Below, piece after piece: positions 31,792-44,469 of a stretch of 64,000 nucleotides of DNA. The position numbers and the translations under genes were made by a program. Position 1 is the first letter of the stretch. Each line of letters starts with the position of its first letter. The notes below the pieces were generated by a model. It was not told the origin of the DNA. It made no database searches and saw only the letters and a list, made by a program, of their open reading frames with translations. This DNA comes from Dehalococcoidia bacterium (GTDB lineage Bacteria > Chloroflexota > Dehalococcoidia > GIF9 > AB-539-J10), in the NCBI GenBank assembly GCA_016930935.1, contig JAFGFT010000019.1:52627-116626 (forward strand), in the 5' to 3' direction.

Positions 31792-32622
31792 TCAGAGCCT
31801 GAGCGCCGTCCATGCTGCGATGTGTCTGAAGAGGTCTGCTTCCATGTCTTCCCTGTGGATGTTGTGTGACAAATTGGGCCAGAGGGTGAATGTTGCGTCG
31901 CCTGAGGAATCTGCAACGAAGCGCTTGCTTCCCTCGTCCGATGTTGCCCTGTCATCCCCACCGTGAACGATAAGTAGAGGCGATCCGAAGAGATGTGCGT
32001 TGTGGCGAGCCCAATTTGCAGCATCGCGCGATTCGAAGAAGAGTCGCGGCGTTATGATGCCATGCATGAGACCGTCCCAATCATCGTTCTTCTCAGTCTT
32101 CGCGTCACCCTTTTTCGACGAGGCAGGGTATCCAGGCTTGAAAGCCCCGAGAATACGCATAGCGGCCACTCGCCACAATGGCGGGCGGAACGCCAGGTCG
32201 AGCCAGGGAGCGGTGCAGATAGCGCCACCCAGCAACGGCTTCCGTCTGAGCACGTAGTTCAGCGCAAGGTTGCCACCAAGACTATGGCCGAAGAGAAACT
32301 GCACTCGCCCAGGACAGGCCATCCCTGCCTCACGGAGAAGCAGTCCCACGTCGTCCATCAACTGTGTATATGACGGAGTGTCCCCACGATGACCCTCGGA
32401 CCTGCCATGTCCGCGCAGGTCGAACGCATGCACCGCGAACCCGGCGACAGTGAGTTCCTCGACTGCCGATTCGTACCGCCCACTGTGTTCCCCGTGTCCG
32501 TGCACCAGGCACATGACTCCGGCTTCTCTCTCTGATGGCCGCCACGACTGGAAGAAAAGCCTGGTGCCGTCGCTCGCGCGCCGCATGTACTCCTCGTGAC
32601 GTATGGTTGTCATCTCCACCAT
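31792..32622 (-). CDS. Alpha/beta hydrolase (monoacylglycerol lipase-like)
   Basis: VMCLVHGHGEHSGRYE, FDLRGHGRSEG, LFGHSLGGNLALNY, VHGGDDRAT; start at 32622 or 32613. Confidence 0.88.
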   Translation of the reverse strand: MVEMTTIRHEEYMRRASDGTRLFFQSWRPSEREAGVMCLVHGHGEHSGRYESAVEELTVAGFAVHAFDLRGHGRSEGHRGDTPSYTQLMDDVGLLLREAGMACPGRVQFLFGHSLGGNLALNYVLRRKPLLGGAICTAPWLDLAFRPPLWRVAAMRILGAFKPGYPASSKKGDAKTEKNDDWDGLMHGIITPRLFFESRDAANWARHNAHLFGSPLLIVHGGDDRATSDEGSKRFVADSSGDATFTLWPNLSHNIHREDMEADLFRHIAAWTALRL

Positions 32623-32657
32623 CTGTGCGTGCTCCCTGGGCCGATATTCCTGCAAGA

Positions 32658-32693
32658 GAGAGGGGTACGCCGCGAAGCGACATACCCCCTCTC
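32658..32693 (-). terminator. Hairpin downstream of the APC permease
   Basis: gagaggggta (32658-32667) / taccccctctc (32683-32693), one bulged C; no long T-tract. Confidence 0.5.
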
Positions 32694-32711
32694 GCTGTGT
32701 TGTCTTTTGCG

Positions 32712-34058
32712 CTAGTCCATTTCGGACGGCATACGTTGCATCAACTTGTCGAGTGACACACCTTCCTTGGCGAGTTGCTTGCGCCTCAGCAGGAAGACCA
32801 CGGCACCGATGGCGAGCCATATCACCGTCCACAGCATCGCTTCAGGCTCCTGCAAGGCCATGAAAATCACAGTGACTATGATGGCCAGAAGCGGCAGGAT
32901 GAAGCGCCAGGTACCAGGGAGCTTGATGGGAGCCTTCTCGTAAAGGTCAGGCTTGCGCGCCTTGAGGTACATGACCGCAACCATCACCAATACGTAGCTG
33001 AACAAGAATGTCAGGTTTGATGTGTAGGCCGCGAAAATGAGCCCCTTGCCCGAGAAGACGAATATGAGCGCGATTATCACTGTCGCCGTCAGTCCCCAGA
33101 CTGGTGTATGGAAACGGGGATTCACGGAACTGAGCTTCTCAGGAATGGCACGGTCACGACCGAGACTCATCACGATTCTCGATGCCGCAAGCTGAAAACC
33201 GTTCTGAGAGGTGCTGACGGCAAGGACCACGATGAGCAACAGCATGGTTGAGGCGACGCTCGGTAAAACAAGCTTCGCGGCATCGTAGATGGGAGTGCTA
33301 CTGGCCGCCTGATCTGACCAGAGCAGGGTTCCGGAGGCAGTGATTGACATGAGTACATAGAGCACGATACAGGCACCAAGGCCCAGGATCATACCCAGGG
33401 GGACGTTGCGCGCAGGGTTCTTTACTTCCTCTCCAATCTCCGCCGCTGCTGTGAAGCCAACGTAGGCGAAGAAGAGAAGCGCCGCGCCCTTTACTGCGCC
33501 AGAAAGGCCGAAAGGCAGCATAGGGCTGAAGTTCTCGGCCTGGACTTTCGGAAGTCCCGCGCCGATGAAGATGACAAATCCGGCAACGAGTATGGCGAAC
33601 ATCACCACCTGTGCCGTCGCCGAAATCTTGACACCCAGCACATTCAGTAGATAGAAGAAGCCGATAAACGCAACCATCAGAACCGGGGCTGAAAGGCCGG
33701 GAGCTACCGTCATGATGTGGTCAGCAAAGACGAAAGCCGTGAGCGCCAGAGGCGTGATGTAGGCCAACCATCTGGCCCAACCAGCCAGGAACCCCCAGAA
33801 CGGGGATAGCACCCTGCTGGGATAGTAGTACGTCCCGCCCTCAATGGGCATAGCAGATGCAATAGAGGCGTAACACACGGCCACTATTATCATCGGCAGG
33901 CCAATAATCAAGTATGAGAGCCAGACTGCCGGGCCTGCCAGGGCTGACGCCGGACCTGCGAGCACGAACGGGCCACCGCCAATGACGGAGCCTGCCGCGA
34001 GCGCGACCACGCCGAAGAGACCAACGTCACGCTTGAGTCCTGTTTTGGTATTGGACAT
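32712..34058 (-). CDS. APC superfamily amino-acid permease
   Basis: LFGVVALAAGSVIGGGPFVLAGPASALAGPAVWLSYLI, FFAYVGFTAAAEIGEEVKNPARNVP; strong RBS aaggagg. Confidence 0.9.
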   Translation of the reverse strand: MSNTKTGLKRDVGLFGVVALAAGSVIGGGPFVLAGPASALAGPAVWLSYLIIGLPMIIVAVCYASIASAMPIEGGTYYYPSRVLSPFWGFLAGWARWLAYITPLALTAFVFADHIMTVAPGLSAPVLMVAFIGFFYLLNVLGVKISATAQVVMFAILVAGFVIFIGAGLPKVQAENFSPMLPFGLSGAVKGAALLFFAYVGFTAAAEIGEEVKNPARNVPLGMILGLGACIVLYVLMSITASGTLLWSDQAASSTPIYDAAKLVLPSVASTMLLLIVVLAVSTSQNGFQLAASRIVMSLGRDRAIPEKLSSVNPRFHTPVWGLTATVIIALIFVFSGKGLIFAAYTSNLTFLFSYVLVMVAVMYLKARKPDLYEKAPIKLPGTWRFILPLLAIIVTVIFMALQEPEAMLWTVIWLAIGAVVFLLRRKQLAKEGVSLDKLMQRMPSEMD

Positions 34059-36086: not shown

Positions 36087-36268
36087 AACAAGCACGCGTC
36101 ACGCAGAGGCATTCCCAGGACTGTTCACAGCATTGTCCCTACGTGCCAAGAAGACCCCCTTTTGCACCCATCACCCCCATCACCGCGCCATTATGTAGGG
36201 CAAATGCCTACACGACATCAAGGCTTTTGCCACAAGACAGCCTCCTGTGTTCGCCCATACAATTGTGA

Positions 36269-36997
36269 ATGTCACTGAGGCTGCGCCTTACAAGGGCCTA
36301 TTTCGATTCAGTCTACAATCGTCTCTACGATGCAACGACCGCTCAACTCGTGCGCTATAAAGAGACGCAAGAACTGCTGGCTGAACGGCTGAGCGCGGTG
36401 GAGCGACAGAAGGTGTTGTGCGTGGGGCTCGGCACCGGAAACGAGTTGACTCACCTGAGGCAAAGAGCTCCCGATCTCGAAATCACAGGCATAGACTTCT
36501 CCCCTCAAGCACTACGACACGCGGGACAGAAACCTGCAGGACAGCAGACGTCCCTGGCTCTCATGGATGCCAAGCTTCTCGCTTTTCGCGATGAGAGCTT
36601 CGACAGGGTCCTCTGCTATCACGTGACGGACTTCCTGCTTGACCCCTCTCAGGCCGTGGCCGAATTGATGCGCGTCCTCAGGCCTGAAGGCCGCTTCGTC
36701 ATCAGCTTCCCTGCATCCAGTGATGGCCTTGGCCTCGGCACGGGGCTCCTCTCCCACGGAGTGGGCAGTGGCTGCTCCGATGCCCGGCACTGTGGTGCTC
36801 TGAAACGTGGACTGACTGCGATTCTAACAGGAATAGTCTACCTTCCCCTCCTGTTAAGGCCACGTCCGGCAACCTTCACGGAATCACAAGTGCGGACGTT
36901 ACTGCGCACTCTTGGCACAGACGGCTGCACCGTCGAGCACGACCCGATCTACAGGGACCATCTCGCCAGCGGAATCAAGATGGAGGGCGTTTCATGA
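36269..36997 (+). CDS. Class I SAM-dependent methyltransferase
   Basis: VLCVGLGTGNELTHL, ITGIDFSPQALRHA, FDRVLCYHVTDFLLDPSQAVAELMRVLRPEGRFVIS. Confidence 0.87.
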   Translation: MSLRLRLTRAYFDSVYNRLYDATTAQLVRYKETQELLAERLSAVERQKVLCVGLGTGNELTHLRQRAPDLEITGIDFSPQALRHAGQKPAGQQTSLALMDAKLLAFRDESFDRVLCYHVTDFLLDPSQAVAELMRVLRPEGRFVISFPASSDGLGLGTGLLSHGVGSGCSDARHCGALKRGLTAILTGIVYLPLLLRPRPATFTESQVRTLLRTLGTDGCTVEHDPIYRDHLASGIKMEGVS

Positions 36998-38610
36998 AGT
37001 ACACACATCCGGAAGACGACTACTTCGACAAGCTTACGGAACCTGAACTGTGGAAGCGCTACTGCGGCTTTCTCGACCTTACCGTGCAGGAATTCATGGA
37101 GATACAGGAGAACCTGCTGCTCGACCAGATAGACCGAGTCTGGCCAAGCGTGCTGGGGAAGAGGATCATGGGCAACGAGAAGCCGATGAGCATGACCGAC
37201 TTCCGCAGCAGAGTGCCTTTCACATCTTATGAGGACTATGAACCGCACCTCAGCAACAAGGACGAGGATGCGCTTGCGTGCAAGCCGGGTTTCTGGTGCC
37301 ATTCATCAGGAAGGATGGGCCAATTCAAGTGGTTTCCGCACAGTCCGGAATTCATTGAACGCGCCAACAAGGCCTGCGTTTCGATTGTCGCGCTGGCCTC
37401 CACGAAAGAACGTGGAAAGATGAATTTCGCACCGGGATTCCACATGCTGCTCGTGCTGCCAAAGGCTCCTTACATGTCAGGTGCCACGATTGATTCTATG
37501 GCGAAATACATCTCCTTCCGAGCCATACCCCCGAGAGACAACGAATCCACACTGCCGTTTCAGCAGCAGGTTGCTGCGGGATTCCAGATTGCGCTCAAGG
37601 AAGGCGTCGACATCATCACCGCCATCGCCAGTGTGCTCGTCAAGATGGGTGAGCAGTTCGAAGAGCAGGCACGCCGCACGAAGTTCACTGTCTCAATGCT
37701 GCACCCTGCCGTGCTCAGCAGGCTCATCAGAGCCAAGCTACGAGCGCGGAGAGAACATCGCCCCATGCTGCCACGAGACCTCTGGCCATCCAAAGCCCTC
37801 GTGACCTCTGGCATGGACACCTCCATCTACAAGCAAGCCATTACACGCTACTGGGGCGCCGAACCATGCGAGTTCTACGGGTGCGCAGAGGGCCTCATAA
37901 TCGCCATGCACGGGTGGAACAAGAACGGCCTGTATTTCCTTCCGGACATCGCATTCTACGAATTCATACCCGAGAAAGAAGTCCAGAAATGGCAGGCCGA
38001 CCCCTCCTACCAGCCTTCCACCGTGCTGTATGACGAGGTAGAGGAAGGCCAACTCTACGAGGTGGTCATCACCCAGCTTTACGGCATGCCACTTCTGCGC
38101 TACCGTATGAAGGACATCGTGAAGTTCACCGGTATGGCGGACAAGGAAACGGGTGTGCGCCTACCCCACATCCGGTTCCAGCGACGGGTCGGGGAGACCA
38201 TCGACCTCGCGGCACTGGCCCGCCTGGACGAACGCACTCTCTGGCAGGCGCTCGCAAACACCGGACTTCGCTACGCCGACTGGGCCGCCACCAAAGAATA
38301 TGACGGTGACAGCACCTATCTCCGCCTCCACATCGAACTCAAAGATGGTGCCTCTTCTGAGAGAGTGGCAGAACTCATGGACCAGAATCTCAAGCTCATC
38401 GATGTTGACTACCGGGACCTCGAATCATACCTGGGCCTCAATCCGGTCAAAGTCACGCTTCTACCGCCGGGGACATTCGACCGGTACACTGATAGACAGC
38501 GCGCCGCAGGGGCCGACCTGGCACACCTGAAGCCGCCACATGTGAACGCATCCCAGGACACGGTGCGCGCCCTGGAAGAATTGTCACAAGACATCACGAA
38601 CGCTTCATGA
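36994..38610 (+). CDS. GH3 (auxin-responsive promoter-like) acyl-adenylate family protein
   Basis: GH3-like length and regions: SSGRMGQFKWFPHS, GCAEGLIIAMHGWNKNGLYFLPDIAFYEFIP, LYEVVITQLYGMPLLRYRMKDIV, C-terminal LKPPHVN; ATGA overlap with upstream gene. Confidence 0.82.
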   Translation: MKYTHPEDDYFDKLTEPELWKRYCGFLDLTVQEFMEIQENLLLDQIDRVWPSVLGKRIMGNEKPMSMTDFRSRVPFTSYEDYEPHLSNKDEDALACKPGFWCHSSGRMGQFKWFPHSPEFIERANKACVSIVALASTKERGKMNFAPGFHMLLVLPKAPYMSGATIDSMAKYISFRAIPPRDNESTLPFQQQVAAGFQIALKEGVDIITAIASVLVKMGEQFEEQARRTKFTVSMLHPAVLSRLIRAKLRARREHRPMLPRDLWPSKALVTSGMDTSIYKQAITRYWGAEPCEFYGCAEGLIIAMHGWNKNGLYFLPDIAFYEFIPEKEVQKWQADPSYQPSTVLYDEVEEGQLYEVVITQLYGMPLLRYRMKDIVKFTGMADKETGVRLPHIRFQRRVGETIDLAALARLDERTLWQALANTGLRYADWAATKEYDGDSTYLRLHIELKDGASSERVAELMDQNLKLIDVDYRDLESYLGLNPVKVTLLPPGTFDRYTDRQRAAGADLAHLKPPHVNASQDTVRALEELSQDITNAS

Positions 38611-41000
38611 CGCAGATTGGAAGCCTTCCGTACGTAGCGCCGCCAGCGATTGCCGCGGTCATCGGGCTCGCAATAATCGCTGTCGTGATGAAGTGGGCAC
38701 CGCCTTCTCCGAGCCGACGTCCGTTCATTCTCATGGTGACGGGGCTCGTTGCGTGGGGCGCAACCATTTTCGGCATGCGCATCAATACCGACATTGCCAC
38801 TGCCCTTATATGGGACCAATTGGCTGCGCCGGCAATCGTAGTGATGTTCCTCGGGTTCTACCACTTCTCTCTCGTGTACACGAAAACGTCCGGCCAGCGA
38901 CACGCACTGGCCGTCGGATACGCACTAGTTGTCGTCTTTCTGATGAGTACGCCGACAGGCCTCATCGTGAAAGGGCTGCGAGTTGAGGATTATGGCTACG
39001 CCCCAATCTCCGGCGTGCTGGCAATACCGGCTGTAATCACGTCGGTGATGTTACTGTTCGCAGGCGTACGCACACTGGTGCGTCGCTACAGGATGACCTC
39101 CTCGTACGAAGAGAGGAACCGCCTCCTGTATCTCATTGCGGGCGCATCCTTGTCGGCGCTCGGTTCAGTTCTCGACATAGTCACGAATCTCCCCCCTGTC
39201 GGTATCTGGACCAATATCCTGTTCTGCGGCATCAGCGCCGTCGCGTTGCTGGGATACCGACTGCTGGACATCCCCGAGGTTGCGCGGCACACCATCACGT
39301 ACCTGGTGCTCGGGGTGATGGTCGCCCTTCCCTACGCGGCAGTACTCCTCGCACTGCAGACTCTCGTTGGAGATAGACTTCAAACGACATGGGGATACGC
39401 TGCTTCGATTCTCATCCTGGCCATTCTGCTTCGCCCTCTCTATGGCGCAGCCCAGAATCTGGTTGACCGGCTTTTCTTTCGCGACCGCTACGACGCTCTC
39501 CGCGCGCTTGAGCAATTTGCACACGATGCCCACAGCGTCGTCGACCTGCACCTGCTCAGCAGCAAGCTTACGAGCCTGGTAACAGAAGCGCTGCATGCGA
39601 CAAGCACCTGCCTTTTCCTCCCCGCAGAGAACGAACGGGTGTTCGAACTCTTTCACTATGATGGCCCGGGTGAGCCACCTGAGCATCGCACTCTCGCTGC
39701 GAACAGTGCCCTCATACGCTGGCTTCGGGAACACCCTCAGCTACTCTATCTCCGAAACCTCGATATAGAGCCCCGCCTGCAGAGCCTGTCACTCAAGGAA
39801 CGGTCACTGCTTGAGGCTCTCAATGCACGTATCCTCGTCCCGATCACGTCTCGAACCGGCCAGATATCCGGTCTTCTCGTGCTCGGAGAGAAGCAATCGC
39901 ACGGCGACTACTCTGCCCAGGATGGGCAGTTTGTACAGACCATCGGTCGTCAACTGGCGCTGTCTCTTGAGAACGCGCGACTGTTCAGCGACTCCCGACG
40001 CGTCCGCGCAGACCTTGAAGGATGGCTTGACGGCATGAGTGACCACGTCGTCATCATTGGACCGGACCGCAGAATCCGGTTCATGAACCGTTCGGCGAAG
40101 GACAATCTCGGCACCTCAATAGGAGCCCCCTGCTGGACTATGTACGGGTCGGGGAAGCTGTGCGCCGAATGTGATGCTGCGGCTGCCTGGCGTGACCGGA
40201 AAGGAAGTGCGCGATTCTCACGGACCATAAGGAACCGACAATATGACGTCGTCGCAGCCCCTCTGCGCGACCCGGGAGGAGAACTTTCCCTCATCAGCGT
40301 GTCCCGAGACGTTACTGAGAGATATCAGTTTGAAGAACGGCTTCGCCGCTCAGAAGACGAGTTGCGACAACTGGCCGCCCACATCGAGTCTGTGAGAGAA
40401 GAGGAACGCACCGGCATTGCGCGTGAACTCCATGACGAGCTCGGTCAGTCGCTCACCGCACTGAAGATGGACATATCCTGGATATCACGCCATCTGTGCG
40501 ATGGTCGCCCCGACATCACTGCAAAACTGAGTTCGATGATTTCACTCACCGAGTTCACCATTGAGACTGTCCAGCGCATCTCTTCGGAACTGAGGCCGGG
40601 AATCCTTGACGACCTCGGTCTTTCCTCTGCGATTGAGTGGTTGGCCATCGGCTTCCAGGAGAGGAGCGGTATCGCCTGCAACGTTGATCTGGACGAGGAA
40701 CTGGAAATGAGTGGTAACCCCGCGACCGTCCTGTTCAGGATATGCCAGGAGTCTCTCACAAACGCCGCGCGGCATTCGGAAGCGCAACGGATAACAATCA
40801 CGCTGCGCAAAGTGGACACTTCAGCGGTGCTTACCGTCTCGGACAATGGCAGAGGAATCACGGAGGCTGAAATAAGCAGGTCTGACTCCCTCGGCATCAT
40901 CGGAATGCGAGAACGAGTACGGGCTCTCGGAGGCCACATCGAGATTTCGGGGGCTCAAGGCAAAGGAACGAGCGTCAGAGTCTCGCTTCCTCTCATGTAG
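38607..41000 (+). CDS. Sensor histidine kinase: N-terminal ~7 TM, GAF-like, PAS-like, HisKA_3 (NarL-type) and HATPase
   Basis: Hydrophobic N-terminus; EERTGIARELHDELGQSLTALKMDI; DNGRGI; GIIGMRERVRALGGHIEI; ATGA overlap with GH3 gene. Confidence 0.9.
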   Translation: MTQIGSLPYVAPPAIAAVIGLAIIAVVMKWAPPSPSRRPFILMVTGLVAWGATIFGMRINTDIATALIWDQLAAPAIVVMFLGFYHFSLVYTKTSGQRHALAVGYALVVVFLMSTPTGLIVKGLRVEDYGYAPISGVLAIPAVITSVMLLFAGVRTLVRRYRMTSSYEERNRLLYLIAGASLSALGSVLDIVTNLPPVGIWTNILFCGISAVALLGYRLLDIPEVARHTITYLVLGVMVALPYAAVLLALQTLVGDRLQTTWGYAASILILAILLRPLYGAAQNLVDRLFFRDRYDALRALEQFAHDAHSVVDLHLLSSKLTSLVTEALHATSTCLFLPAENERVFELFHYDGPGEPPEHRTLAANSALIRWLREHPQLLYLRNLDIEPRLQSLSLKERSLLEALNARILVPITSRTGQISGLLVLGEKQSHGDYSAQDGQFVQTIGRQLALSLENARLFSDSRRVRADLEGWLDGMSDHVVIIGPDRRIRFMNRSAKDNLGTSIGAPCWTMYGSGKLCAECDAAAAWRDRKGSARFSRTIRNRQYDVVAAPLRDPGGELSLISVSRDVTERYQFEERLRRSEDELRQLAAHIESVREEERTGIARELHDELGQSLTALKMDISWISRHLCDGRPDITAKLSSMISLTEFTIETVQRISSELRPGILDDLGLSSAIEWLAIGFQERSGIACNVDLDEELEMSGNPATVLFRICQESLTNAARHSEAQRITITLRKVDTSAVLTVSDNGRGITEAEISRSDSLGIIGMRERVRALGGHIEISGAQGKGTSVRVSLPLM

Positions 41001-41108: not shown

Positions 41109-41648
41109 CTAGTCGATTTCCTCGAAGACAGTCTCGCAATAGGGGTCACCCCAGGTCAGCAATGAACGGCAATAGACCTTCACTTTGGGATTGTGTGTCC
41201 TGCACACTTCTTCCTCAAAGCAGTCTTCTGCAAGGCAGAACGCCGGCGGGACATCAAGGTCAGGGAACCAGAGGCAGGGTGGATAGAGCCTGTAGACAAC
41301 CTTCTTCGGCCCTTCCTGGATGAGTTCGGCCTTGTAGCCTACGACGTCACCCGTGGCAAGCTTGAAGTAGCTCGCGAGTGCCCACGCATCATTCCCCTCG
41401 ATACCGAATTTCTGCATCGATGCGTCGAAGTACCGGTGTGCCATGCCCTTCATGAGCTTGCAGAGAATGCCCGCAGTCTTTTCCTCTCCTACTTCCTCGT
41501 GAAGCAGTTTCACGAGCTCCCTGTAGTAGGTCCACCCGGTCTTGGCGGATGCCTTCGCCTTTCTCAGTTCCGTCCAGCCTTCAGGCAACTCCGGTTGTTC
41601 CCTCTCGATTCGCGGAAGTCGCTCGTCGTCTCGTCTCACCTCAGTCAC
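41109..41648 (-). CDS. L-2-amino-thiazoline-4-carboxylic acid hydrolase-like / DUF family protein
   Basis: Cys-rich C-terminus FCLAEDCFEEEVCRTHNPKVKVYCRSLLTWGDPYCETVF; GTG start at 41648 with aggaggg RBS. Confidence 0.5.
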   Translation of the reverse strand: MTEVRRDDERLPRIEREQPELPEGWTELRKAKASAKTGWTYYRELVKLLHEEVGEEKTAGILCKLMKGMAHRYFDASMQKFGIEGNDAWALASYFKLATGDVVGYKAELIQEGPKKVVYRLYPPCLWFPDLDVPPAFCLAEDCFEEEVCRTHNPKVKVYCRSLLTWGDPYCETVFEEID

Positions 41649-41787
41649 GAGAGCCCTCCTTTTTGTGTGGCCTTGACCCACTGCTCGCGGTCATACAGGC
41701 GTTGGCCTGCCAGTGTATCGAATCAGTTTCCGAATGCAAAGGCACATAACGCGGCAGGTGACACCGGATGAGGGCGTCATCCGTGTG

Positions 41788-41852: not shown

Positions 41853-43058
41853 CTGAACCCGTCTGTCGCACTGCTGGTAACCATCGCGGCTGTCCTCCTA
41901 TTTCTGCGAGTGAAGGTCCATCCGGGCCCTTCAGTGTTCGCCGGTAGCCTTCTCCTCGCCTTTCTCGTTCTTCGTCCTGCAGATATTCCACAGCTGGTGC
42001 TCGACGCAACCATAGACATTCAGACTCTACGCCTGCTGGCGATAGTCATCTGCGCACTGACCATGAGCCGCATCATGGAGATGAAGGGGCTGCTGGTACG
42101 ATTGGCAAACGCGCTCGAGACCATCGGCCCAAAACTGGCCATACAGGTCGCGCCCGTTGCCATCGGCCTCCTGCCACTTCCTGGCGGTGCAGTGGTTTCC
42201 GCAACGGCGATGAAGGACCTGGTGAGACGTCTGAAGCTCAGTCCTGAACAGGCCACCTTTGTCAATTTCTGGTTTCGACATCTGTGTGAGTTCGCCACCC
42301 CTGTGTATCCCGGTGTCATAATGGCAGGCGTCTTTCTGGCGATGCCACTGTCCACCGTCCTGTTGCACTTGGCACCCATATGGATACTCATGCTTGCCTC
42401 CGGCGCGCTGCTTTCTTGGCGCATCCTGCGAGATTCACCCGCCTCAGACAAGAAAGGGGCTCCGCGCAGCAATGTACTCAGAGAACTGGCAAGGTCCGCA
42501 TGGCCTGTCGCGCTGGTGTTTCTTCTCGTGGTTCTCGGGATGGATGCAGCGCCGGCTTTCATGGTCACGGTTCTCGCACTGATCCTGCAGCAGCGGCTTT
42601 CCGTGCCGGAAATCAAAAGCGGATTCGCCTATGGATTCAATCTGAAGATTATCTTCCTGCTCTGCGCGGTTATGGTATTCAAGAGTGTTGTCGAAGCATC
42701 TGGAGCAGCTCAAGCGTTGTTCGACGAGATGCAGGCATTCGGCATGCCTGAGGTTGTCGTTCTCATTGCCCTCCCCATGCTCATCGGGTTCTCCACAGGA
42801 CTCTCATCAGCAATGGTCGGTATTTCCATTCCGCTGGTCATGCCGTTCATCATCGCAGGAGACACGTTCAATGGCTGGGCCTTTCTCGTCGCCTACGGGG
42901 CGGGCGGTTTGGGCTATCTTCTGTCCCCACTACACCTCTGCCTGATACTGTCCGCAGAATACTTCCATGCCAGGCTTCTGGACGTCTATCGCTACTTACT
43001 GCCCCCGGCAGCAGTCGTGCTGACAGGTATCACGGCACTCTACTTCCTGTTCGCCTGA
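41853..43058 (+). CDS. DUF401 family integral membrane protein (probable transporter), copy 1; probable CTG start
   Basis: ORF track starts at GTG 41910, but homology to copy 2 extends upstream as LNPSVALLVTIAAVLLFLR; GGAG at 41841-41844 precedes CTG 41853; no ATG/GTG/TTG in frame between the stop at 41814 and 41910. Confidence 0.75.
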   Translation: MNPSVALLVTIAAVLLFLRVKVHPGPSVFAGSLLLAFLVLRPADIPQLVLDATIDIQTLRLLAIVICALTMSRIMEMKGLLVRLANALETIGPKLAIQVAPVAIGLLPLPGGAVVSATAMKDLVRRLKLSPEQATFVNFWFRHLCEFATPVYPGVIMAGVFLAMPLSTVLLHLAPIWILMLASGALLSWRILRDSPASDKKGAPRSNVLRELARSAWPVALVFLLVVLGMDAAPAFMVTVLALILQQRLSVPEIKSGFAYGFNLKIIFLLCAVMVFKSVVEASGAAQALFDEMQAFGMPEVVVLIALPMLIGFSTGLSSAMVGISIPLVMPFIIAGDTFNGWAFLVAYGAGGLGYLLSPLHLCLILSAEYFHARLLDVYRYLLPPAAVVLTGITALYFLFA

Positions 43059-43134: not shown

Positions 43135-43233
43135 GACAATTGATTCTATGGCTGAACTAGTGAGTACCCGTACGTATACGAGGGATTACTTCTTCCGCGG
43201 ACAACGTTGTTCTCACCCCCACAATCAATTGTC
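43135..43233 (+). ncRNA. Candidate structured 5' leader closed by an 11-bp perfect inverted repeat
   Basis: GACAATTGATT (43135-43145) / AATCAATTGTC (43223-43233); inner GTGAG (43160-43164) / CTCAC (43212-43216) and hairpin CCCGTA-CGTA-TACG(A)GG (43167-43183). Confidence 0.45.
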
Positions 43234-43263
43234 ACTCAAGGACAAGAGGGGCTTTCGACTTCG

Positions 43264-44469
43264 TTGAGCGCGTCTATCGCTCTCCTGCTGTCGATGGCAG
43301 GAGTCCTGATCCTGCTGAGACTCAAGGTCCATCCGGGGCCTGCGGTGTTCGTCGGCTCGCTCATTCTCTCACTTCTCGTGCTGCCCGCCATCGAAACACC
43401 ACGATTGATGTTCGCCACCGTCACGAGTCTCCAGACTCTGCGTCTCATCGGAATCATCATCTGCGCCCTGACACTCAGTCGGCTCATGGAACTCAAGGGC
43501 CTGCTAATCAAGCTGGCTCACACGCTTGAGACCATCGGCCCGAAGGTGGCGCTGCACGTTGTCCCGGTAATTATCGGATTGGTGCCGATGCCTGGCGGTG
43601 CACTCGTGTCCGCCACTGCAGTCAAGGGCCTTGCGGAACGCCTTCGCCTGACAGCCGCCCAGGCTACGTTCATCAACTTCTGGTTCAGGCATATCTGGGA
43701 ACTGTCCACCCCTGTCTATCCAGCAGTCATCGCTGCCAGCGTGGTCCTCTCCGTTCCTCTCTCAACGGTTGTCATCACGATGCTCCCGGCAATCCCCTTG
43801 TTCATTGTGCTCGGCTGTATCAAGAGCCGCGAAATACTGCGCCACGTACAATCCGAACCTCTCGACAGCATCCCCGGTCGACAGCTTGCGCAAGAACTGC
43901 TGCGGGCTGCATGGCCCGTCGTCCTGCTCATCGGACTCGTCATCGCAGGTGTCGAAGCAGCCATTGCATTCCTCATTGCCGCAATTCTCCTCGCGCTGCA
44001 ACAACGTGTCTCCCGGCCAGAGTTGCGCAACGCACTCAGGTACGCGTTTGGTCTCAAGACTCTGTTCCTGCTCTTCTCTGTGATGCTCTTCAAGGGCATC
44101 GTGGAGCAGTCCGGCGCCGCCGCGATTCTGTGCGCGGACATGCAGAGTATCGGCATGCCGCCGGCTCTTGTCATTCTCGTTCTTCCCGCGCTTGTGGGAT
44201 TCGCCACCGGCCTCTCCATGGCCTTCGTGGGCATCTCCTTCCCGCTACTGCTACCATTCATCACTAACGCGGGAGGCGACATACAGAGCACCGCGCTATT
44301 CCTTGCCTACATCGGCGGAGGTCTGGGCTACATGGTGTCTCCTCTTCACCTCTGCCTTATTCTTTCTGCGGAGTTCTTCCAGGCCAGACTGGCAGACGTG
44401 TACCGCCTGATGGTGCCTCCTCTCCTCGTCCTCATAGCCATAGCACTCGGCGCGTATCTGTTATTCTGA
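43264..44469 (+). CDS. DUF401 family integral membrane protein (probable transporter), copy 2
   Basis: LSASIALLLSMAGVLILLRLKVHPGPAVFVGS...; TTG at 43264 aligns with CTG of copy 1 (ORF track begins at 43207). Confidence 0.8.
   Translation: MSASIALLLSMAGVLILLRLKVHPGPAVFVGSLILSLLVLPAIETPRLMFATVTSLQTLRLIGIIICALTLSRLMELKGLLIKLAHTLETIGPKVALHVVPVIIGLVPMPGGALVSATAVKGLAERLRLTAAQATFINFWFRHIWELSTPVYPAVIAASVVLSVPLSTVVITMLPAIPLFIVLGCIKSREILRHVQSEPLDSIPGRQLAQELLRAAWPVVLLIGLVIAGVEAAIAFLIAAILLALQQRVSRPELRNALRYAFGLKTLFLLFSVMLFKGIVEQSGAAAILCADMQSIGMPPALVILVLPALVGFATGLSMAFVGISFPLLLPFITNAGGDIQSTALFLAYIGGGLGYMVSPLHLCLILSAEFFQARLADVYRLMVPPLLVLIAIALGAYLLF

Follow-up and report, generated by a model that had tools for sequence, protein, structure and literature searches.

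In the window, the 64,000-nucleotide stretch of Dehalococcoidia DNA that was analysed, three consecutive genes lie on the forward strand. The first encodes a SAM-dependent class-I methyltransferase (36269-36997, 242 aa; Pfam Methyltransf_11, 2.5e-21), the second a GH3-family acyl acid amido synthetase-like enzyme (36994-38610, 538 aa; Pfam GH3_M, GH3_C, and GH3), and the third a membrane sensor histidine kinase (38607-41000, 797 aa) with the order 7TM, two further TM helices, GAF, PAS, HisKA_3, and HATPase, as assigned by Pfam. An earlier sequence-only reading described these genes as coupled by two 4-bp ATGA overlaps, and both are confirmed: the methyltransferase stop overlaps the GH3 start at 36994-36997, and the GH3 stop overlaps the kinase start at 38607-38610, each on the forward strand. 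The genes are as that reading described them, except that it placed the start of the region at 36258 and the methyltransferase ATG lies 11 bp further downstream (36269).

A Shine-Dalgarno-like GGAGGG (36982-36987) precedes the GH3 start. No obvious Shine-Dalgarno sequence is present ahead of the kinase start, which fits translational coupling. Since a MarC gene on the same strand lies 182 bp upstream and an opposite-strand gene follows downstream, the operon is probably limited to the methyltransferase, GH3, and kinase genes. Scans for promoters and terminators gave no excess over shuffled sequences, and no response regulator was recognised beside the window kinase. Convergent with the operon is a 190-aa open reading frame (41109-41681, reverse strand) with no Pfam or NCBIfam match. 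Two neighbouring genes for DUF401/TIGR00529 membrane proteins (41910-43058 and 43207-44469) have clear Pfam matches and fall under the NCBIfam cut-off.

Predicted proteins of the operon

The methyltransferase carries the SAM motif GLGTGNE at residues 53-59 and, on inspection of the sequence, a conserved hydrophobic stretch; it reaches no equivalog cut-off in NCBIfam. The second protein belongs to the GH3 family, its scores against the Pfam models of the N, M, and C domains (36.7, 59.1, and 38.2 bits) all exceeding the cut-off of 23.6, and profile searches match it to plant GH3 enzymes in the PDB. Its AF2 model has a pLDDT of 88.3 with a low-confidence loop at 106-109, and plant GH3 enzymes are the best folds found by Foldseek (6e1q, 1.6e-24; JAR1, 4epl, 4.9e-22). 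E299 and RYR..D374 (motifs II and III) are kept. The P-loop SSGT (nucleotide-binding motif I), which is a functional motif and not a criterion of GH3 membership, is replaced by SSGRMG (residues 103-109). In the alignment, SGT is changed to SGR/K/Y in most sensor-linked GH3s, and the other-phylum GH3s examined have SGT or SGS; loss of the threonine is a possible hallmark of the sensor-linked subfamily. Because the replacement extends to most of this subfamily, adenylation by its members may be altered or lost.

The kinase opens with a HisKA_7TM region (38649-39272, residues 15-222; PF16927, 4.4e-13), which scores 50.0 bits against a cut-off of 28.6 and is accompanied by HisKA_3 and HATPase_c, so that the protein belongs to this family. 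Between TM4 and TM5 of this region, DSSP on the AF2 model finds a beta-hairpin (residues 121-135), predicted to lie on the extracytoplasmic side. The sequence-only reading called the protein a 7TM kinase; seven TM helices are indeed there, but the AF2 model adds a predicted two-helix membrane hairpin (39276-39479, residues 224-291; DSSP helices 224-259 and 261-291), which brings the predicted total to nine. The GAF domain follows (39543-39968, residues 313-454; Pfam GAF, 2.5e-6), and alignment identifies it as a constant part of the GH3-linked receptor module. A PAS domain (40026-40328, residues 474-574; PAS_4, 3.9e-6) leads to the HisKA_3 and HATPase_c output module (40404-40994), whose catalytic motifs are intact (LHDELGQ with the phospho-acceptor His609, N box at 719, G1 at 746). 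The AF2 model of the membrane-GAF part has a pLDDT of 86.3 and a pTM of 0.66. A fold search with this model recognised the GAF domain and found no known ligand receptor matching the membrane part; the top 50 included GAF-containing and phytochrome structures and therefore offer no clue to a ligand.

Conservation of the GH3-receptor pair

GH3 loci were collected by whole-genome searches of the family, order, and class and by a scan of genome contigs, which took in Dehalococcoidia, other Chloroflexota (e.g., Anaerolineae and Caldilineales), one MAG labelled Deltaproteobacteria, and Ca. Lucifugimonas marina. Duplicate loci were recognised by the DNA stretches they share and were removed. Most of the loci retained are from Dehalococcoidia; the remainder belong to further Chloroflexota and to two MAGs that bear the labels of different phyla. 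Absence of the three-gene order from related genomes, which the sequence-only reading had named as grounds for abandoning its idea, is contradicted by recurrence of the full methyltransferase-GH3-receptor order in 13 loci (the window, L033, L034, L035, L082, L084-L088, L125, L130, and L134). L033 belongs to the same genus as the window, and its GH3 is 70% identical. The MAG that contains L130 bears the label Spirochaetes, and the contig may be mis-binned. For L130, and likewise for L132, a GH3-receptor pair in a MAG contig labelled Deltaproteobacteria, transfer and mis-binning are both possible.

The same reading proposed a survey of bacterial GH3 homologs for adjoining methyltransferase and HisKA_3 kinase genes. 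The triple does recur, but the methyltransferase is specific to certain clades and HisKA_3 is not conserved. The conserved core is the GH3 enzyme with a membrane-GAF receptor, not the triple. The receptor membrane-GAF module lies downstream on the same strand in 113 of the 120 GH3 loci with at least 1 kb of downstream sequence, a count that is slightly inexact because a stop divides the GH3 of L035, which enters it twice, and because tandem GH3s may have one receptor between them (L038). Across all loci, the gap between GH3 and receptor hits is at most 400 bp in 105/121, and the overlap of the two genes recurs in L033, L036, L082, L084, and L089. The receptor is kept divergently, 3-5 kb from GH3, in L095 and L100; in L156 and L177, the GAF kinase that is present has no TM part and is accompanied by an OmpR-type regulator. 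L011 and L027, with tandem GH3s, show no receptor on their short contigs; L112, which lacks one, is the sole true exception. Tandem GH3 duplicates occur in L038, L011, and L027, some with an RHH-like gene, and may have diversified substrates.

The linkage also holds in reverse. A profile of the membrane-GAF part found about 55 such genes in 52 genomes of the family, and 48 of the 51 that could be resolved stand beside GH3: 46 adjoin GH3 hits, as compared by coordinates, and two adjoin GH3 fragments at contig ends. Of the remaining genes, four are at contig ends and three, from one genus, lie beside a gene for a large secreted protein. In these last loci (L199, L200, and L201), the protein encoded next to the receptor is secreted, very large, and repeat- or propeller-like. 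On one Streptomyces and two Bacteroidota replicons, a small control, no receptor was found beside GH3. Three other PF16927 members were tested, and any relationship that they have with the GH3-linked branch is a distant one. The recurrence of both triple and pair in related genomes places the operon layout far beyond chance. PF16927 proteins are rare (0-2 per genome) and yet are found beside GH3; chance adjacency was rejected on this ground.

Most carriers of the GH3 subfamily belong to the class: 108 of 393 class genomes have it, and a phylum-wide draw of 400 gave only two matching genomes from elsewhere. The pair is present in an apparent Dehalococcoides (L094, which is probably Dehalococcoides mccartyi 195).

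Output modules and upstream genes

The output attached to the receptor, typed by small HMMs as HisKA, HisKA_3, or GGDEF plus HD-GYP, has switched five or more times across a 91-row GH3 tree, and the pair persists throughout. Most relatives have HisKA or GGDEF plus HD-GYP; in its 11-row clade, the window kinase alone has HisKA_3, the others being of HisKA type. A mirror-tree comparison of GH3 with membrane-GAF gave r=0.80 against a permutation maximum of 0.08, with 42/87 splits shared, values which are inflated by shared ancestry. In genomes with two systems, each GH3 is paired with the receptor of its own clade. The genome of the window has such a second system on another contig (C65, locus L037, 7655-13143), consisting of an RHH-like gene, a GH3 paralog 38% identical to the window GH3, and a receptor with GGDEF and HD-GYP.

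The genes upstream of GH3 vary by clade in the locus survey. They comprise the window-type methyltransferase, PEMT/ICMT-like membrane proteins, another class-I methyltransferase, RHH-like proteins, response regulators, and secreted lipocalin-like proteins; PEMT and one ThiF-like protein were matched to Pfam, and the rest of the upstream and accessory genes were recognised by reading the sequence. The window-type methyltransferase is kept upstream of GH3 in the 13 loci listed above, including the sister locus L033, where it shares 60.9% identity with that of the window (tblastn). The PEMT/ICMT-like proteins match PF04191 (best 1.9e-7), one of the four falling under the curated cut-off, and a different class-I methyltransferase precedes GH3 in L139, L141, and L142. 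These methyltransferases are of mutually unrelated types, and some GH3 loci have none. RHH or response-regulator genes stand upstream in many loci. Accessory genes include those for a FabF-like ketoacyl synthase (L092 and L110), a 4HBT-like thioesterase (L178 and L179), B12-radical-SAM proteins (L120 and L171), and ThiF-like proteins (L090 and L158). Taken with the methyltransferases, these occasional FabF-like, thioesterase, and radical-SAM genes suggest that the product is an acyl compound whose tailoring differs between lineages.

A secreted lipocalin-like protein of approximately 190-280 aa with a signal peptide is encoded directly upstream of GH3 in several loci (L036, 9769-10428, reverse strand; L089, 7144-7725; L093, L113, L138, L162, and L169). 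Pfam searches with three of these proteins found no family above cut-off.

A putative acyl-amide circuit and its alternatives

Plant GH3 enzymes attach amino acids to hormones and inactivate auxin by such conjugation. JAR1, GH3.5, and GH3.15 share family and fold with the window GH3 but keep the P-loop threonine, and plant GH3 enzymes are not known to be gene-linked to receptors. Canonical HisKA_7TM kinases have a TM region of the same Pfam family as the receptor; the GH3-linked branch is nevertheless distant (35.9 bits in the reverse test) and differs by two more predicted TM helices, the GAF domain, and outputs that are often not kinases. The synthase of DSF signalling, RpfF, is a crotonase and not a GH3 enzyme, and RpfC/RpfG is a further DSF receptor pair that works with it. 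The RpfF/RpfR system resembles the circuit proposed below in its fatty-acid-type signal and in receptors with kinase or c-di-GMP outputs (PMC6361424), although no shared receptor module is known. In Ralstonia, a methyltransferase, PhcB, makes a fatty-acid-derived signal which the sensor histidine kinase PhcS reads (PMC11960443, PMC8578825); PhcB, however, produces a 3-OH fatty acid methyl ester without any GH3, and the likeness is one of putative function. The feature that marks pairs of the PhcB/PhcS and RpfF/RpfR type, a putative synthase linked to its receptor across genomes, is found here in both directions (113/120 and 48/51).

Bacterial GH3 enzymes are widespread, and in the literature found OlsH is the only one with an assigned function. 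This planctomycete GH3 (Singulisphaera acidiphila) makes N-acyl-ornithine from fatty acids and is encoded in an operon with the N-methyltransferase OlsG (PMC12493201). The window shares with OlsH/OlsG/OlsI a GH3 gene beside a SAM methyltransferase, and the Ols operon yields a methylated N-acyl amino acid lipid; on the other hand, no sensor gene is reported there (PMC12493201), and the P-loop is SGT in OlsH and SGR in the window GH3. The window GH3 scores 34.6 bits against the 620 required by the OlsH lyso-ornithine lipid synthetase model (NCBIfam NF052613). No OlsI-like alpha/beta-hydrolase acyltransferase, as in the OlsH/OlsG/OlsI operon, stands beside it; the only alpha/beta-hydrolase gene nearby in the window (31792-32832) is 3.4 kb off on the reverse strand, and in family loci it does not accompany GH3. 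The literature searched, on GH3 in Dehalococcoides, on ligands of HisKA_7TM proteins, and on signalling by Dehalococcoides, yielded no description of a GH3-receptor pair and no cell-cell signal in Dehalococcoides.

The near-constant adjacency of GH3 and receptor suggests a circuit, so far undescribed, by which cells would produce and detect a molecule derived from fatty acids. The GH3 enzyme would activate a fatty-acid-like carboxylic acid and couple it with an amine or amino acid to form an acyl amide, and the upstream methyltransferase would set the identity of the product by methylating its acyl, amino, or carboxyl part. The linked receptor, through some part of its membrane bundle and GAF module, would sense this product and drive the attached output, namely, histidine phosphorylation in the window and c-di-GMP turnover in many relatives. 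We give about an even chance to the operon being such an acyl-amide synthase-receptor module with a methyl-tailored product. The sequence-only reading held that the methyltransferase and GH3 make or inactivate a small acid signal sensed by the kinase. On the genomic side, this idea is strongly supported, also beyond the genome of the window, by the conserved order of the genes and by the near-absence from the lineage of GH3 genes that have no linked receptor, but its core is the pair; a putative signal of this kind fits all the evidence. A broader proposal, more tentative, is that bacteria, mainly Dehalococcoidia, have an equivalent of the acyl-amide hormone signalling of plants. GH3 enzymes would make N-acyl amino acids or amines, diversified and methyl-tailored, as signals that possibly act between cells, and dedicated membrane-GAF receptors would read them through outputs swapped among histidine-kinase and c-di-GMP modules. 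No exporter was seen to be conserved alongside the pair, nor were any target genes under its regulation.

The main rival, which we consider somewhat unlikely, is membrane amino-lipid homeostasis: the N-acyl amino-acid lipid made by the GH3 and methyltransferase would be a structural one, and the receptor, instead of detecting a messenger, would monitor the state of the membrane and tune lipid synthesis or a stress response. The methylated ornithine lipid made by OlsH-OlsG-OlsI of Singulisphaera (PMC12493201), the methyltransferases and PEMT-like proteins upstream of GH3, and the hydrophobic stretch of the methyltransferase speak for it. It is weakened by the shortfall against the OlsH model and by a search of family loci with the window proteins, which found no OlsI-like hydrolase next to GH3, and one receptor module with swapped outputs and clade-matched double systems resembles ligand-receptor pairs more.

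Conjugation could also serve to inactivate an environmental carboxylic acid sensed by the receptor, in detoxification or uptake, as plant GH3 does with auxin; the regulatory genes (RHH or response regulator) upstream in many loci would suit this. We regard it as improbable, given that the coupled FabF-like and thioesterase genes of some loci suggest an endogenous acyl supply and no transporter was seen conserved with the pair. The altered P-loop of most members and the low-confidence loop in the model would agree with a catalytically changed GH3 that partners the sensor by binding a ligand or by regulating it, but E299, RYR, the D374 region, and the whole fold are retained and the tailoring enzymes would be left unexplained, which makes this quite improbable. 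Adjacency without function, by hitchhiking or operon fusion, is strongly disfavoured. Linked neighbours can persist by descent, and some gaps reach 200-400 bp; nevertheless, linkage is nearly exclusive in both directions, the pair survives output-domain swaps and rearrangement in genomes of the L095/L100 type, and the receptor is absent beside three other-phylum GH3s.

The near-obligate link to one receptor family provides a direct, testable hypothesis for the role of GH3 in Dehalococcoidia, including the apparent Dehalococcoides, and assays of the adjacent enzyme offer a way to look for the ligand of this receptor family.
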